IMG/VR virus record: IMGVR_UViG_3300020446_000003
Location: 1 to 64,000 of that record
Source: a virus
Length of the DNA: 64,000 bases
Direction: 5' to 3' (one strand)
Shown: positions 2,491-50,408 of the stretch, piece by piece
Position numbering within the stretch: the first letter of the stretch is position 1
Layout: every line of letters starts with the position of its first letter
The notes under the pieces: model-generated
What the model saw: only the letters and a program-made list of their open reading frames with translations
Database searches by the model: none
Told to the model about the DNA's origin: nothing
Translations under genes and position numbers: made by a program

Positions 2491-4482
2491 ATGGCAGATT
2501 ACGGACCATTAGGTGGAGTTAAAATAGCGGGATTTATTTCGCCAGGTGATACTACAGATACTTATGCAGTTATTGATACCCAGTTAGGTATCGATGGATT
2601 AAGAAACTATAGTGGTAATACTAATGACGTTTTAACTGGTACTACCGTACCTTTACCGAGAAGAAGACCTGGTATGATTGTAGGTACGGAAAGTGGTGCA
2701 AGATATTTTAAATTAAAAGATAAAGACCCTTACGATTTTGACTTAACGGATTGGGATGAAATATTTTTTAGTGGTGGTGGATCAGGTTCCGCAATTACTG
2801 GTGGTACATATAGTGCAGGTACTTTAATATTAACCAATGGGACTGGAGGTACAATAACTGTCACCGGTTTCTCTTCAGATAATATTTACGTAACTGGAGG
2901 TACTGTGAGTACAGATGGTTTATTATTTTTAAATTGGAATAATGGTGGTACTGCTAACCCTATTGATTTATCAGATTTAATTTTTACTGGAAACACATCA
3001 GGAAATTGTATTACACAATTATTTGTTAAAAAGATTAGTGGGTGTACGGGAGAAGATTTACGTATAGGAGTCCAACCAGGACAAGATATATATTTTGATT
3101 CTACAGGTTCTACTACATCACCTTCATTATATATAAATCCAAAAGGACAAATTGGTGTTGGTACTAACACACCTTTTAGTTGGGCAACTAATGACGGTAC
3201 AGGTATAGAAGTTCATAATGATAGTACTAATGATCAGATACCATTAGCATTTACTGAATTAGGAACAAGAAGATTTTTCTTTGAGACTGATTTTGCCAAT
3301 ACTTCTAATCCAGTTCATATAAAAGGTAGTAGTAGTACTAATTTAATGACTTTTAATACTTCATCCTCTTCTGCGAGAGTTGGGGTAGGTACTACTGTAC
3401 CAGATGGAACATTTCAAATTGCTAAAGCAGGTTCAATTGCAAACCAAACTAAATATCCTGATGAGACTAATATAGTAATTAATAATACAAGTAATGGGTT
3501 TAGTGGTTCAACAGGTCCAAATAGTGCTGCATTTAGATTCGATCATGGAAGTGGTGAGGATCCCGGTGGTTTAATTATATCTAAAAGACTACCTGTATGG
3601 GATAGTGGGGAAAAAAGTACTACGTTAGAAATTTGGAATGCTTCAGGAGAAACATTATTTAAACGTATTGAAATTCAACCCGATGGTCATACCACAATAA
3701 GTGGTGATACATTTATTGGGGGTAATTTAAGAATATTAAATATTGGTAGTGGTACACCTATCGGTAATTTAGGTGTGGATATTAATGGTAATGTTGTTAC
3801 AGGTACAACTGGAGGTGGTGCTACGGGCACAACAGTTACCGCCTATACCTATAGTAATAATAATTTCACAATTAAACAAAGTGGTGGAGAACCTGACTTA
3901 ACTGCAAATATTAGTGTGGTAACAGGATTAACTGTTAATGGTGGTTTTAATGTTAATGGAGAATCTATTTTTAGTGGTGATAGTACAGATGTAGTAAAAA
4001 TATTTGGATCAGGCAATACCTCACCTTTATTTAGTGTAGAGGGTTCGGTTGGGGAATTATTCACAATCACAGATAGTTTAACTGGACAATTATTTGGTGT
4101 AAATAACGTATCAGGATTACCTATTTTAGAAGTCTATGACGACAATACTATATTGATGGGTAGTAATTTATCTCCTTCGTTAAACACAACTATTAAACAA
4201 ACTATTAATAGTGGTCAATCTACATTATATAGTATACCTATTAGTGCATATACAGGAGCATTTTTTGAATATACTGCCAAAAACACTGCGGGTGTTAGAG
4301 CAGGATCTATAATGTCAGTATTTAGTGGTAGTTCTGTAGAATTTAATGAAACAACAACAAATGATATTGGTAGTACAACCAATTTAACATTTGATATGAG
4401 TGTGACGGGTACGTCAGCAAATTTATTAGTATCTGCAACTACAAATAATTGGGAAATAAAAACAATAATAAGAAGTATCTAA
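2491..4482 (+). CDS. Tail fibre-like repeat protein, 663 aa
   Basis: The first 100 residues (MADYGPLGGVKIAGFISPGD onwards) are unlike later fibre repeats and probably dock the protein. The remainder is made of beta modules: the VTGG-T strand pair, a two-Cys module around residues 170-187 (C-I-T-Q-L-F-V then G-C-T-G), a GQIGVGTNTPF-type segment as found in S74-associated fibres, and a GTPIGNLGVDINGNVVTGTT module near 418-440. The last two kinds recur in the 2549-aa protein, and the two-Cys module also in the 2141-aa one. The C-terminal 100 residues contain an N-terminal-like sheet segment and end INNxWEIKTIIRS-like, without a chaperone domain. The gene follows its neighbour by 27 bases and ends one base before the next ATG, so it is co-transcribed. 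Confidence 0.75.
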   Translation: MADYGPLGGVKIAGFISPGDTTDTYAVIDTQLGIDGLRNYSGNTNDVLTGTTVPLPRRRPGMIVGTESGARYFKLKDKDPYDFDLTDWDEIFFSGGGSGSAITGGTYSAGTLILTNGTGGTITVTGFSSDNIYVTGGTVSTDGLLFLNWNNGGTANPIDLSDLIFTGNTSGNCITQLFVKKISGCTGEDLRIGVQPGQDIYFDSTGSTTSPSLYINPKGQIGVGTNTPFSWATNDGTGIEVHNDSTNDQIPLAFTELGTRRFFFETDFANTSNPVHIKGSSSTNLMTFNTSSSSARVGVGTTVPDGTFQIAKAGSIANQTKYPDETNIVINNTSNGFSGSTGPNSAAFRFDHGSGEDPGGLIISKRLPVWDSGEKSTTLEIWNASGETLFKRIEIQPDGHTTISGDTFIGGNLRILNIGSGTPIGNLGVDINGNVVTGTTGGGATGTTVTAYTYSNNNFTIKQSGGEPDLTANISVVTGLTVNGGFNVNGESIFSGDSTDVVKIFGSGNTSPLFSVEGSVGELFTITDSLTGQLFGVNNVSGLPILEVYDDNTILMGSNLSPSLNTTIKQTINSGQSTLYSIPISAYTGAFFEYTAKNTAGVRAGSIMSVFSGSSVEFNETTTNDIGSTTNLTFDMSVTGTSANLLVSATTNNWEIKTIIRSI

Positions 4483-37811: not shown

Positions 37812-37833
37812 AATAAATAAAATATAATTATAA

Positions 37834-37859
37834 GGTGGGATTATTCCCACCTTTTTTTT
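37834..37859 (+). terminator. Rho-independent terminator after tail sheath
   Basis: GGTGGGA and TCCCACC form a perfect 7-base stem (37834-37840 with 37845-37851) around a TTAT loop, followed by eight T (37852-37859). It separates the abundant sheath message from the HAD-like gene, which starts 5 bases later. Confidence 0.9.
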
Positions 37860-38723: not shown

Positions 38724-39167
38724 ATGGAAAAGAATATAAATAACGAAATTAAAAGAATGAAATCATTGTTTAATGAGGAAAGACTTTACGGTAATATAGA
38801 AAATGATAAAGAAAATTTAAATGAAGGTTTAAAGTCTACATTAAAAGGTATTGGTGGAATGTTTAGAGGTACTGGGTATAGTTATACTAAATATGCTTAT
38901 GAATTATCTGGGGCATTGAAAGAACTTAATGAAGAATTAGAAGAAACAATTAAAGAAGTTAATAAGATAATTGATAAATCTAATAAATCTAAAATGAGTA
39001 ATGTAGCATTTGATAGATTAACTGTTCATGTGGCAGATGCAATAGATACCTATAAAATGGCTATAGATACTAATGATATTATTATTAAAGACTTAGATTT
39101 CTCTGTTAGTTCTAATAGGGGGGATGAAAGAGTAGATGATACTCCACAATCACAATTACAAAGATAA
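38724..39167 (+). CDS. Helical protein with shared N-terminal peptide, 147 aa
   Basis: The first 24 residues follow MEKNI..EIKR.K.LF.EER and then LYGN. They are nearly the same as the start of the 285-aa protein at 42898, though the rest of the two proteins is unrelated. The body is alpha-helical with coiled-coil character (LSGALKELNEELEETIKEVN), with a Gly-rich link (KGIGGMFRGTGYSYTKY) before it. The C-terminus is polar. A cleaved, head-targeted protein is a reasonable idea (see findings). No enzymatic motif is seen. It precedes the tail tube gene but has a separate promoter. Confidence 0.7.
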   Translation: MEKNINNEIKRMKSLFNEERLYGNIENDKENLNEGLKSTLKGIGGMFRGTGYSYTKYAYELSGALKELNEELEETIKEVNKIIDKSNKSKMSNVAFDRLTVHVADAIDTYKMAIDTNDIIIKDLDFSVSSNRGDERVDDTPQSQLQR

Positions 39168-39252: not shown

Positions 39253-39741
39253 ATGGCAGATTTATTAATGAGAATGCCGGTTCCTTATGAACCATTAAGA
39301 AAGAATAGATGGATTCTTAGATTTCCAGATGATTTAGGAATTCAAGAATGGTGGATTTCTACTGCAAGTAGACCTAAATACACTAGTGATGAAGTATCAA
39401 TACCTTTTCTAAACACTGAAACTTATGTTATTGGTAGATTTAGATGGGAAACTATTTCTGTAACATTTAGAGACCCTATTGGACCATCTGCGACACAAGC
39501 ATTGATGGAGTGGGTAAGATTACATTCTGAGTCTGTAACTGGTAGACAAGGATATGCGGCAGGATACAAAAAGAATGTAGAGTTAGAAATGTTAGATCCT
39601 ACAGGTGTTGTAGTACAAAAATGGATTTTAGAGGGAACTCAATTAAATGATGCTGACTTTGGTGGTTTAGATTATAGTTCTTCCGACTTAGCAGACATTA
39701 CATGTACATTAAGATTTGATAGAGCGATTAACGTATTCTAA
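39253..39741 (+). CDS. Tail tube protein (gp19-like), 162 aa
   Basis: Inner tail tube subunit; length nearly equals T4 gp19 (163 aa). The start MADLLMRMPVPYEPLRKNRW, then FRWETISVTFRDPIGPSATQ, ALMEWVRLHSESVTGRQGYA and a final LADITCTLRFDRAI strand are the conserved features of gp19-like tubes. The protein polymerises on the baseplate under tape-measure control and is surrounded by the sheath protein encoded at 34989. Its own late-type promoter, A-rich leader and perfect downstream terminator suit a highly expressed single gene. Confidence 0.92.
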   Translation: MADLLMRMPVPYEPLRKNRWILRFPDDLGIQEWWISTASRPKYTSDEVSIPFLNTETYVIGRFRWETISVTFRDPIGPSATQALMEWVRLHSESVTGRQGYAAGYKKNVELEMLDPTGVVVQKWILEGTQLNDADFGGLDYSSSDLADITCTLRFDRAINVF

Positions 39742-42897: not shown

Positions 42898-43755
42898 ATG
42901 GAGAAAAACATTAGTGAAGAAATTAAAAGAATTAAAACTTTATTTACCGAAGAAAGGTTATATGGTAACTTAGTAGAAGCAACTAATCCAGATACTAATA
43001 ATGATAATGTTATAGACGCAACTGAGTTTACTGCTTCTGGTAATGAAATAGATAGGGTTGAAGCAGAATTATTTTTAACTTCAAATAGTAAACCTAAAGA
43101 AAATTTAGTAGATTATTGTTTAAGATCAGGATCAACATTAACATTACCAAAAGAAGTAATTGAAAGTAAGGTTCCTGTGTCATCAAAATTTGTAACAAAA
43201 ATTAATTCGTCAGGTACAAACTGTTTTTGGGAAATGAGAAATCCATCATCTGCAATTATTACTGCACCACAAGTTTCGATGGTATATATTTTAGAAGGTT
43301 ATAAAATGGGATTTTTTGTTAGATTAAGTCCCGTTATTAATTTGAGTACGTTAGCAGATGCTGCTAAAACTTTGGAATATAGAGATCCTCTTCTTACATC
43401 ACTAATCACAACTAATGCGGTTAGAAATAAAGAAGAAAAAATTGAGTATCTTAAATTTGTTGGTAAGTTAAATCCATCTCAATTTTCATCAACACCTAGT
43501 TACTCAGACATTGAATACGTAGATTTAAAGTTTACTGGTTTTTATGATACTAAATTTAGGCAAGCAGAAAACAGATTAGAACAACCATTATTTAAATCAT
43601 TAGAGCATTTACCAAATGGTGGGTACAGACCATTAGATGGCGGCGGAACTAGAATTGACAATTACGCCCCAAAAGTTGATGGAATTATTGAAGAATTAGG
43701 TATTTCACCTGGTAGTGGTAAGATAGAGAGTATAATTGATAATTTACAAAGTTAA
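42898..43755 (+). CDS. Protein with shared N-terminal peptide and EF-hand-like loop, 285 aa
   Basis: The start is nearly identical to the 147-aa protein at 38724 (MEKNI..EIKR.K.LF.EER, then LYGN). Right after it, residues 31-42 read DTNNDNVIDATE, a canonical 12-residue EF-hand calcium loop with D, N, D, D and E at the binding positions. The rest is an unknown mixed alpha/beta domain (for example ITAPQVSMVYILEGYKMGFF). The loop sits just behind the putative leader, so calcium could order the junction. It is followed after 3 bases by the 831-aa gene and the two are probably expressed together. Confidence 0.72.
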   Translation: MEKNISEEIKRIKTLFTEERLYGNLVEATNPDTNNDNVIDATEFTASGNEIDRVEAELFLTSNSKPKENLVDYCLRSGSTLTLPKEVIESKVPVSSKFVTKINSSGTNCFWEMRNPSSAIITAPQVSMVYILEGYKMGFFVRLSPVINLSTLADAAKTLEYRDPLLTSLITTNAVRNKEEKIEYLKFVGKLNPSQFSSTPSYSDIEYVDLKFTGFYDTKFRQAENRLEQPLFKSLEHLPNGGYRPLDGGGTRIDNYAPKVDGIIEELGISPGSGKIESIIDNLQS

Positions 43756-46333: not shown

Positions 46334-47119
46334 ATGGAAAATGTACACAATAATATATTGGATCCTAATTATATTCCTGAAGAATTAAAAACACCTTATG
46401 ATGTTATTGAATTACCTTCACAAGGATTATTATATAAGGATAAATTATCTAAAGTAAAAATAGAATTTTTAACTGCAATGGATGAGAATATTTTAAGTTC
46501 TCCTAACTTAAGTTCTAATCCTAATGAAATGATTAATTTATTAATTAAAAATAAAGTTAAAGATTTAAATATGTCTCCTGAAGATTTATTAGATGGTGAT
46601 AGAATGGCGATTTTAATATTTTTAAGAGCAACTGCATTTGGGCATATGTATCAACAAATGGTTTACGATCCTTCAGAAGAGGACTTTGTTGAAGTGGAAA
46701 TAGATTTAACTCAATTAGAACATAAAAAATTATTAATTAAACCAGATAATAATGACGAATTTGATTTTATTTTACCTTCGTCAAAAAAGTTGATTAAATT
46801 TAAATTTCTTACTGCAGGTGATGAAGAGTCTATAGATAATTACGATAAAGAGTTAATGAAAAGGAGAGGTGACAATTTATCACAAAAAATTACTTTAAGA
46901 TTAGAAAAATGTGTTACAGAAATTGATGGGGAAAGGGATAAAATTAAAATATCTAATATTTTAAAGAAATTACCTATTATGGATTCTAGAACTTTAAGAA
47001 AGTATATAGAAAAAAATGAACCAGGAATAAATATGGAAACAAAAGGTCGGACTCAGGGGGGAGGGTCCGTTAGTTGCTTTCTTACACTCGGAGCAAATTT
47101 TTTCTGGCCTCAACTCTAA
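46334..47119 (+). CDS. Tail/baseplate hub assembly protein (gp26-like), with frameshift near its end
   Basis: The first 230 residues fit a gp26-like hub-assembly protein of T4-type phages: VIELPSQGLLYKDKLSKVKI, LTAMDENILSSPNL, LLDGDRMAILIFLRATAFGH, and FKFLTAGDEESIDNYDKELM. The last 23 residues after G-R-T are Cys/Trp-rich and unlike the body. A second frame that begins inside this tail continues for 64 codons with clear protein-like sequence. The end of this 0-frame product is therefore probably an alternative terminus, with a longer product made by ribosomal frameshifting, as in the tail assembly chaperones of many tailed phages. It lies two genes upstream of the tape measure, the place where such chaperones are found. 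Confidence 0.7.
   Translation: MENVHNNILDPNYIPEELKTPYDVIELPSQGLLYKDKLSKVKIEFLTAMDENILSSPNLSSNPNEMINLLIKNKVKDLNMSPEDLLDGDRMAILIFLRATAFGHMYQQMVYDPSEEDFVEVEIDLTQLEHKKLLIKPDNNDEFDFILPSSKKLIKFKFLTAGDEESIDNYDKELMKRRGDNLSQKITLRLEKCVTEIDGERDKIKISNILKKLPIMDSRTLRKYIEKNEPGINMETKGRTQGGGSVSCFLTLGANFFWPQL
47048..47069 (+). promoter_or_regulatory. Candidate frameshift signal: G6 run inside a hairpin
   Basis: CGGACTC (47048-47054) can pair with GGGTCCG (47063-47069), including one T-G pair, leaving AGGGGGGA as the loop. In the reading frame the codons are CAG-GGG-GGA, so a slippery stretch (47056-47062) sits in the loop. The stem is far richer in G+C than the surrounding sequence. A shift of -2 at GGA, or +1 at the GGG at 47063, leads into the long downstream frame; -1 leads to a stop after three codons. 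Confidence 0.55.
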
Positions 47120-47255
47120 TTTTTTACAACATTTACATAAAGAAATTTCTTTTTTAGTTAAGAAAGGTGGGTTTACTTATTCCGATATTATGGTAATGCC
47201 TACATATTCTAGAAGAATTTTTATAGAAAACCTTAAACCAAAAGACAATAAATAA
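47061..47255 (+). CDS. Second frame of the gp26-like gene, reached by -2/+1 frameshift
   Basis: This frame has no ATG near its start and is open upstream only to 47031. It encodes 64 codons: EGPLVAFLHSEQIFSGLNS, then LQHLHKEISFLVKKGGFTYS and DIMVMPTYSRRIFIENLKPK, ending with TAA at 47253-47255. The pattern (helix, GGFTYSDIMVMPTYSRR) is protein-like and resembles small C-terminal extensions of phage tail assembly proteins. It cannot be expressed alone from an ATG, so it would extend the gp26-like protein to about 306 residues. A single-base sequencing error is the main alternative. Confidence 0.6.
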   Translation, partial: EGPLVAFLHSEQIFSGLNSNFLQHLHKEISFLVKKGGFTYSDIMVMPTYSRRIFIENLKPKDNK

Positions 47256-48518: not shown

Positions 48519-50408
48519 ATGGCAGAGTTCGATGATGATTGGTATAAAGAACAATCAGGTAATCTTAAAAAATTATTAGATGAAACTAAGACTTTTTATA
48601 GTCAGGTTGATGGTTTAAGTAGGAAAACACGTCAAAGGGAAAAACAAGAAGTAGAAGATTTACTTAAAAAATTAAAATCTCAAGTCGAATTAGGTGGTGA
48701 AGAAGCTAAAAATGCCAAAGAATTAATTAAATTAGCACAAAAAAGATTAAAAGTTATTACTTCTCAATACGAAGTAACAGGAAGAATTAGACAAGAAACA
48801 CAACAAACTTTACAAGATTTTAAAAAGTTTATTGAGACGAGTGCTGCTCAATACAACTACGCACAAAAAATTGCTAAAGAATACTTAACAGTAAGTAGAA
48901 ATATAGGTGTTAGTGGTGCACATCAAGAAAGATTAACTAAAAACTTTAAAATGTCGTTACCTGAAGTAGAACAATTAGGTGGTAGTTTAGAAGATGTTAC
49001 AGATATTATGCAAACAATGGCGGAAGAATCAGGTAGAGCTAGAATTTTAGATCCTAGTGATGTAACAAATATTGAAGAAATTGCTAGAGCATTAAATATG
49101 AGTGCTAGTGAAACTACAAAGATGTCAGAAACGTTTGATCTTATGGGAATATCTACTGAAAGTATGAAAAATAGTTTACAAGATGTTTATAAAGAATCAA
49201 GTAAATTAGGATTGAACGCTAATAAGGTAGTAAAACAATTAAGTAATAATATGAAGTCTATACAGTCTTATTCATTTTCAAGTGGAGTAAGAGGTATGAC
49301 TGAAATGGCTAAACAAGCAGTAAGAATGAGGATAGATGTATCTGATGTTTTACAAATGGCTGATAAATTTTATCAACCCGAAGCTGCAATTGAAGCAGCA
49401 GCTAATTTACAAATGTTAGGTGGGGATATAGCTAAAGCGTTTGGTGATCCATTTGAAACTATGTATATGGCTCGTAATAAACCTGAAGAATTGGCTAAAA
49501 AATTAGGTGACATGACTGAAAACATGTTACAATTTAATGAAGAAAGTGGTAGATACGAACTTCCAGCAGAAGCTAGAATGCAATTGAAAGCTGCAGGTGA
49601 TCAGTTAGGAATTAATACTGAAAAAATGGTTGAGATGGCTAGACAATCTAGTAAAATCAAAGACTTAAAGATGAAATTCACTGCAATTGGTGACAACGAT
49701 ATGAAAGAGAATTTAGCATCATTAGCTAAATTTTCGGAAGAGAAGGGTGAATTTGTTATACAACATAATGGGGAAGAATTAGGATTAAATGAAATTTCTG
49801 ATGGAATGGCTGAAGAAATAATGGACGCCAATGCTAATGAAGGGAAAACAGATAGTGATTTATTTAAAAATATTGCCATTAACACTCAAACTATGAGTGA
49901 ACAATTAGCTAGTTTAAAAGAGAGTAGTATGGCAACTATTGCAGGAACAACAGATTTATATGAAATTACTGCAGAACAAATGAAAAAATCTTTAGTTACA
50001 CCATTAAAAAAGAGTATGGAAACGGCACAACAATCTTTTATTGAAAATTTCAGTCCTAAAAGTTTATTTGAAGGTGATACATGGAAAAATACGTTAATGG
50101 GGTTTGAAGAAATAAAACAAGAATCTTTAGATTCATTAGAAGAGTATTATAGGGACGTATTAAATATCCCATTACCTGAAGATAATGTAACACCAGGTCC
50201 CGATAATGAAAATAACAATGACAATGTTAATCCCGCTCCTATGGCAAGCACACAAAATATTAATTTAGATGTTGCAATAAATGGAGATGGAACGTTTACA
50301 CCTGCACAAATGGATATGATTTCTAATAAAATTACACAAAAAATTGTAAATGGGATTGAAGTAAAATCAGATGGACAAGATATTGAGGTAGTACTTAATA
50401 TAACTTAA
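48519..50408 (+). CDS. Tail tape measure protein, 629 aa
   Basis: The N-terminal 100 residues are a charged helix (TRQREKQEVEDLLKKLKSQV, then LAQKRLKVITSQY). The sequence is helical for most of its length with many Ala, Met, Lys and Gln, the typical profile of a tape measure. Examples are MQTMAEESGRARILD, IARALNMSASETTKMSETFD and LQMLGGDIAKAFGDPFET. T4 gp29 has 590 residues, so tail length should be similar to T4 if the usual scaling holds. A Pro/Asn-rich linker at about 550-575 precedes a C-terminal beta segment. Placement right before the baseplate genes supports the call. Confidence 0.8.
   Translation: MAEFDDDWYKEQSGNLKKLLDETKTFYSQVDGLSRKTRQREKQEVEDLLKKLKSQVELGGEEAKNAKELIKLAQKRLKVITSQYEVTGRIRQETQQTLQDFKKFIETSAAQYNYAQKIAKEYLTVSRNIGVSGAHQERLTKNFKMSLPEVEQLGGSLEDVTDIMQTMAEESGRARILDPSDVTNIEEIARALNMSASETTKMSETFDLMGISTESMKNSLQDVYKESSKLGLNANKVVKQLSNNMKSIQSYSFSSGVRGMTEMAKQAVRMRIDVSDVLQMADKFYQPEAAIEAAANLQMLGGDIAKAFGDPFETMYMARNKPEELAKKLGDMTENMLQFNEESGRYELPAEARMQLKAAGDQLGINTEKMVEMARQSSKIKDLKMKFTAIGDNDMKENLASLAKFSEEKGEFVIQHNGEELGLNEISDGMAEEIMDANANEGKTDSDLFKNIAINTQTMSEQLASLKESSMATIAGTTDLYEITAEQMKKSLVTPLKKSMETAQQSFIENFSPKSLFEGDTWKNTLMGFEEIKQESLDSLEEYYRDVLNIPLPEDNVTPGPDNENNNDNVNPAPMASTQNINLDVAINGDGTFTPAQMDMISNKITQKIVNGIEVKSDGQDIEVVLNIT

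Follow-up and report, generated by a model that had tools for sequence, protein, structure and literature searches.

A gp26-like gene in the tail module of this virus ends in an overlap with a second reading frame that lacks a start codon of its own, which raises the question of whether ribosomes pass from the first frame into the second and, if so, where. We addressed it on the 64,000 nucleotides covering positions 1 to 64,000 of IMG/VR record IMGVR_UViG_3300020446_000003 (the window). Relatives were collected by a search for the hairpin pattern of the locus as well as by a protein-profile search independent of the hairpin, yielding a clade 1 of 41 distinct sequences (gp26 identity ~50% or more). 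A more distant clade 2 comprises 19 distinct contigs (30-35% identity). The evidence is comparative throughout; counts among the 41 relatives are not independent of each other, for which parsimony counts on the gp26 tree are of help. Taken together, these comparisons make it very likely that one gene specifies two chaperone forms, a minority of ribosomes shifting by +1 at TTT-CTT-A with an upstream hairpin as the probable stimulator.

Two overlapping frames in the tail module

The two frames and their neighbors are as follows.

46334-47119, + strand: gp26-like short form, 261 aa, complete 0-frame ORF (PF12322, PHROG 150, tblastn homologs)
47079-47255, + strand: +1-frame extension, 58 codons plus stop, resembling the gp51 tail (open in 41/41, distant homologs, gp51-tail profile)
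39253-39741, + strand: upstream tail tube protein, gp19-like (PHROG 4542, 4.5e-24)
48519-50408, + strand: downstream probable tape measure protein (PHROG 2276 tail length tape measure, 1.9e-4)

The 0-frame ORF, terminated by TAA at 47117-47119, scores above the cut-off of the PF12322 (T4_baseplate) profile (E 5e-6, 26.8 bits, cut-off 24.5) and matches the baseplate hub family PHROG 150 (3.8e-8). Its tblastn homologs reach residues 259-261, and the FFWP motif at its C-terminus is common to distant gp26 relatives, the alignment extending to the final residue. The last 23 residues, considered odd in the original prediction, thus form a C-terminal end that is normal for gp26-like proteins and conserved among them. 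An AlphaFold model of the short form is confident (pLDDT 88); a fold search of the PDB returned no significant solved chaperone, the HK97 chaperone entry 2ob9 appearing at E 3.5 only.

The second ORF lies in the +1 frame, overlaps the 3′ end of the first and ends with TAA at 47253-47255. No ATG occurs in this frame before the residues DIMVMP, and fusion of both parts gives a predicted long form of ~306 aa. The -1 frame of the window runs into TAG soon after a run of six G (G6) close to the overlap; no classical -1 heptamer arrangement (X-XXY-YYZ) was obtained for the window, its -1 frame being closed by a stop. In these respects, namely a 0 frame passing the G-run to 47119, a second frame without early ATG to 47255 and the early -1 stop, the original prediction was accurate. 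It had counted two other G6 runs, of which there are three on the + strand (23656, 24346, and 39118).

The position of the gene between those for tail tube and tape measure is kept in the phages immuto, SP-15, and LIS04. With the lambda G/GT-type chaperones and their equivalents from further long-tailed phages the locus shares this tube-to-tape-measure gene with a short product and a putative minority frameshifted tail devoid of a start codon: the window has the gene position, a conserved overlapping ORF without start and a conserved, plausible slip site (TTTCTTA, 41/41). It differs from that type in belonging to the T4 gp26 family (PF12322), in the +1 direction of the shift and in the probable upstream hairpin stimulator.

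None of 28 gene starts in the window is preceded by a Shine-Dalgarno-like sequence; like those of Bacteroidota, they follow regions rich in A/T. The missing Shine-Dalgarno sequences and a Flavobacterium phage among the relatives suggest a host from the Bacteroidota. One clade-1 relative is located on a contig from a Prochlorococcus single-cell genome.

As a separate observation on the virion module, a similar short amphipathic leader is found on the otherwise unrelated ORFs at 38724, 39825, 42898, 43759, 47293, and 61278 (e.g., MEKNINNEIKRMKSLFNEERLYGNI at 38724 and MEKNISEEIKRIKTLFTEERLYGNL at 42898). This shared N-terminal segment is possibly a targeting or cleaved leader.

Proposed position of the frame change

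Four short elements define the region in which the frames have to be joined, or serve for comparison with it.

47070-47072, + strand: +1-frame codon TTA, replaced by TAA or TAG in 21/41 relatives
47078-47084, + strand: proposed +1 shift site TTT-CTT-A (UUU to UUC and/or CUU to UUA), invariant in 41/41
47099-47107, + strand: TTT-TTC-TGG (FFW), homologous in position to the slip site TTT-TTT-TGG of distant relatives
46805-46811, + strand: second in-frame TTTCTTA of the same gene, without hairpin, a natural control

The clade-1 alignment around the site is gap-free, all members having the same 0-frame protein end followed by the +1 ORF. Both frames and TTTCTTA are present in 41 distinct contigs, the stem of the hairpin in most of them. 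In 21/41 distinct relatives, the +1 frame is closed by TAA or TAG 8 nt before TTTCTTA, at a point past the G-run and ahead of the second ORF. Parsimony on the tree of the upstream gp26 protein assigns eight gains and five losses to this stop, and two relatives whose gp26 proteins do not differ up to the hairpin (L062 and L085) nevertheless have TAA and TTA here, respectively. Downstream of TTTCTTA, the +1 frame is open in all 41 sequences. From there to the FFW codons its conservation amounts to 6.94, compared with 3.14 ± 0.80 when synonymous 0-frame codons were resampled with the site held fixed, the observed score being reached in none of the 300 rounds. We therefore conclude that the +1 frame is under selection, and presumably translated, from TTTCTTA onward. 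The heptamer itself is invariant despite the rarity of CTT, which accounts for 9.5% of the Leu codons in these genes. Hence, the shift would fall into the few codons (about five) between the stop position and CTT, and is best placed at TTTCTTA. A programmed change from frame 0 to frame +1 as the T4-type counterpart of the tail-chaperone frameshift, the core of the original prediction, is thereby supported by the relatives.

According to codon-anticodon rules, TTT to TTC and CTT to TTA would both permit re-pairing after a +1 step and lead to the same peptide (..F-L-..). The junction peptide predicted for the window is ..SVSCF-LHSEQ in the case of a shift at TTTCTTA and ..GEGPLVAFLHSEQ in the case of a slip at the G-run. 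We infer a +1 rather than a -2 shift; as an alternative, the tRNA on CTT may slip by -2 onto TTC, adding one residue. The A-site codon is AGA in most relatives and ACA in the window. Neither is a stop and AGA represents the commonest Arg codon, which leaves the pausing typical of +1 sites without an explanation. In-frame TTTCTTA occurs at four other places in the genes of the window.

Distant relatives would shift at Phe-Phe codons in the position homologous to FFW, and clade-1 sequences retain TTT followed by T or C there. Clade 1 could accordingly still shift at this ancestral TTT-TTC-TGG (47099-47107), with TTTCTTA kept for another reason. We regard this as improbable, since the +1 frame is open and constrained further upstream, back to TTTCTTA, and since the FFW codons vary, in contrast to the invariant heptamer.

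Alternatively, the downstream ORF might encode a separate protein, initiated at a non-canonical start and coupled to the termination of gp26 or to a Shine-Dalgarno-like element. Cyanophages and other T4-like phages have an ATG just after gp26, and the loop of the hairpin is similar to a Shine-Dalgarno sequence. Against this stand 32/41 clade-1 sequences in which the stretch from the -8 stop position to +60 offers no canonical start in frame, the few codons that clade 2 leaves for such a start (absent in 10/19) and the 28 gene starts of the window phage, none of which uses a Shine-Dalgarno sequence, so that separate initiation appears very improbable.

Less probable still is the slip at G6 inside the hairpin loop, by -2 or +1, favored in the original prediction. 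It draws on the +1 frame of the window itself, which is open from the G-run, and on the -2 shift in the chaperone gene of phage Mu (PMC5009743). Because of the +1 stop behind the run in 21/41 relatives, repeatedly gained and lost, a shift at this place is dead in half of clade 1; different from the Mu type, a -2 slip at the G-run would lead into the same stop. In addition, the run is interrupted by an A (GGAGG) in 9/41, and selection has not preserved an open +1 frame from the run to TTTCTTA. Transcriptional slippage at G6 was rejected as well, the loss of one G meeting the same stops in the 21 relatives. Bypassing as in T4 gene 60 was discarded for a 0 frame that has neither stop nor gap and continues into the conserved gp26 C-terminus. 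A single gene split by an assembly or sequencing error, conceivable for a metagenomic contig with a homopolymer run nearby, is practically excluded, as the same frame relation recurs in isolate genomes and in 41 distinct contigs that come from many samples.

Upstream hairpin and G-rich loop

The proposed +1 shift at TTTCTTA is preceded by two overlapping elements.

47048-47069, + strand: RNA hairpin with a 7-bp stem, CGGACTC (47048-47054) and GGGTCCG (47063-47069), supported by covariation
47057-47061, + strand: GGRGG loop core, complementary to the anti-Shine-Dalgarno CCUCC, putative function (purine in 41/41)

The loop comprises 8 nt (AGGGGGGA, 47055-47062) with G6 at 47056-47061, and the 3′ end of the hairpin lies 8 nt 5′ of TTTCTTA. 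Stem and loop are those originally predicted; the idea that they enclose the slip site was not borne out, as the shift is placed 8 nt 3′ of the hairpin. Stems of 7 bp with at least five G-C pairs and a loop of 4-10 nt are found twice on the + strand of the 64-kb window, at 47048 and 37833. The latter is a terminator-like perfect hairpin (AGGTGGGATTATTCCCACCT, 37833-37852) directly after the tail sheath gene.

Across the 41 sequences, pairing in the stem is seen in 84% of cells versus 73% in shuffled and at most 55% in slid controls, and the covariation score is 0.268 versus 0.122 and at most 0.190, respectively. Parsimony gives 16 double compensatory, six single, and 13 breaking events. All six inner pairs are formed in 32/41 sequences; five members of one sub-clade (L052, L063, L066, L067, and L069) have lost the canonical register and contain other hairpins there. 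RNAalifold retained three inner pairs only, since one sub-clade has lost the outer columns. The folding energy of the RNA segment in the window is not unusual in comparison to shuffles (z -0.21). On this comparative basis the hairpin is an RNA structure conserved by compensatory change.

In a 70S system from E. coli, an upstream hairpin positioned close to the E site promotes +1 frameshifting (PMC6321510), and the 5′ stem-loop of T4 gene 60 is thought to pull the mRNA by refolding at the exit channel (PMC5009743). By analogy with both systems, the hairpin is probably a +1 stimulator upstream of the shift site rather than a wrapper of the slip site. This role, the efficiency of the shift and the chaperone function of the products are inferred. 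A function as transcription terminator was rejected, there being no U-run directly after it. A pseudoknot of the G-rich loop with CCUUUCU was also set aside: it is geometrically possible, with an invariant downstream strand and mostly G-U pairing that permit no covariation signal.

The GGRGG core is present in nearly all 41 sequences, 16 nt from the shift codon. The third base of the Gly codon in the loop is A or G in 41/41, although 62% of the other Gly codons in these genes are GGT. Bacteroidia hide the anti-Shine-Dalgarno tail of their rRNA and yet keep the prfB frameshift element (PMC8710568). The G-rich loop may add pairing with the 16S rRNA.

In the proposed mechanism, most ribosomes would read the gp26-like ORF to its own stop and release the short form. 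A minority would shift by +1 at 47078-47084, and translation of the +1 frame would then extend the protein by ~57 residues to the long form. The hairpin, unwound by the passing ribosome, would refold at the mRNA exit as the shift codons enter the P site and thereby favor forward slippage, with pairing of its G-rich loop to the 16S rRNA as a possible addition. In T4, this task probably falls to two paralogs, gene 26 for the short and gene 51 for the long form.

Among known +1 systems, prfB (RF2) shares the shift at a CUU/UUU-type site and a G-rich element upstream, and its frameshift also occurs in Bacteroidia (PMC8710568). In the RF2 type, however, a stop occupies the A site and the Shine-Dalgarno-like element is ~3 nt away, whereas the window has ACA (AGA in most relatives) in the A site and its G-rich element 16 nt away inside a hairpin loop. 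A 5′ hairpin is likewise found in the SARS-CoV attenuator, in synthetic 70S hairpins and in the T4 gene 60 stem-loop, where refolding at the mRNA exit favors +1 or forward movement (PMC6321510, PMC5009743). Different from those, the hairpin of the window would stimulate a +1 shift naturally, in a gene for phage tail assembly, and would be conserved in evolution. The few +1 frameshift stimulators known so far would gain an upstream hairpin that is natural and covaries, in a lineage without Shine-Dalgarno starts.

The wider gp26 family and T4 gp26/gp51

In clade 2, the same tail follows in the +1 frame after TTT-TTT-TGG; a +1 stop directly precedes the T-run in 7/19 contigs, and 10/19 have no early start. 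This +1 layout at Phe-Phe codons was also found in Flavobacterium phage immuto, Microcystis phage Mel-JY01, Bacillus phage SP-15, Listeria phage LIS04, Rhodothermus phage RM378, a Streptococcus phage, and a jumbo phage. T4-like cyanophages, Caulobacter phage Cr30, Sinorhizobium phage phiN3, a KVP40-like Vibrio phage, and Aeromonas phage AS-szw encode the tail in frame -1, where it follows a U-UUU-UUC/U run located at these Phe-Phe codons. In most phages of the -1 type an ATG comes shortly afterwards, and some carry a gp51 annotation there, so that the tail may also be made alone.

Both gp26 and gp51 of T4 belong to PF12322 (8.8e-64 and 3.9e-52), with gp51 covered over residues 1-201. The remaining C-terminal tail of gp51 was matched by the profile of the +1 tails, with P 8.4e-7 over columns 205-251 when the S-PM2 tail was added and P 5.1e-5 without it, as well as by the -1 tails (P 2.5e-9). 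The +1 and -1 tails also match each other (P 5.8e-7). Profile comparison of the +1 tails with T4 gp26 gave no match; with the 0-frame family profile, a match extending along the length of T4 gp26 was obtained (P 3.3e-9). A profile of clade-1 gp26 alone is weak against T4 gp51 or gp26, the more diverse family alignment being needed for these comparisons.

The locus thus shares with T4 the protein family and a gp51 that ends with the tail of the frameshift product; different from it, T4 has two separate, divergent genes and no frameshift. The gp51-type layout, a gp26-type domain with a C-terminal tail, is found in the window as well, where the single product is predicted from the joined frames. 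Judged from these alignments, what the relatives produce by frameshifting seems to be divided between two genes in T4, gp26 (short) and gp51 (long). Both proteins are listed as hub assembly chaperones in a review of the T4 tail (PMC3004832), and a 2016 review names T4 as the exception among phages with a frameshifted tail chaperone (PMC5009743). Should the comparison hold, T4 gp26 and gp51 would represent the short and long chaperone forms, which is checkable in T4 itself. Many phage annotations would likewise gain a missing protein. Within the open-access literature, no report of a gp26/gp51 frameshift was found; most subscription papers and preprints lie outside this coverage, and its novelty is provisional.

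We give roughly even chances to a broader history in which T4-type phages form no exception: a frameshift at the C-terminal Phe-Phe codons throughout the gp26 family, in the +1 or -1 direction depending on lineage, its replacement in T4 by gene duplication (gp26 and gp51), and a new upstream hairpin in clade 1 as a dedicated +1 stimulator, its loop complementary to the anti-Shine-Dalgarno, in phages that do not use Shine-Dalgarno sequences.

Two individual genomes deserve mention. At 3156-3374 of the RM378 sequence (L121), a gp26-like ORF ends with TTT-TTT-TGG and is overlapped by a +1 ORF, the tail being weakly similar to the others; a tail tube gene is annotated nearby on the opposite strand. 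Aeromonas phage AS-szw (L138) contains, at ~1480-1680, a gp51-like -1 tail after gp26 with neither an ATG nor an annotated gene, making it a clean candidate for a -1 frameshift in a phage of the Straboviridae.
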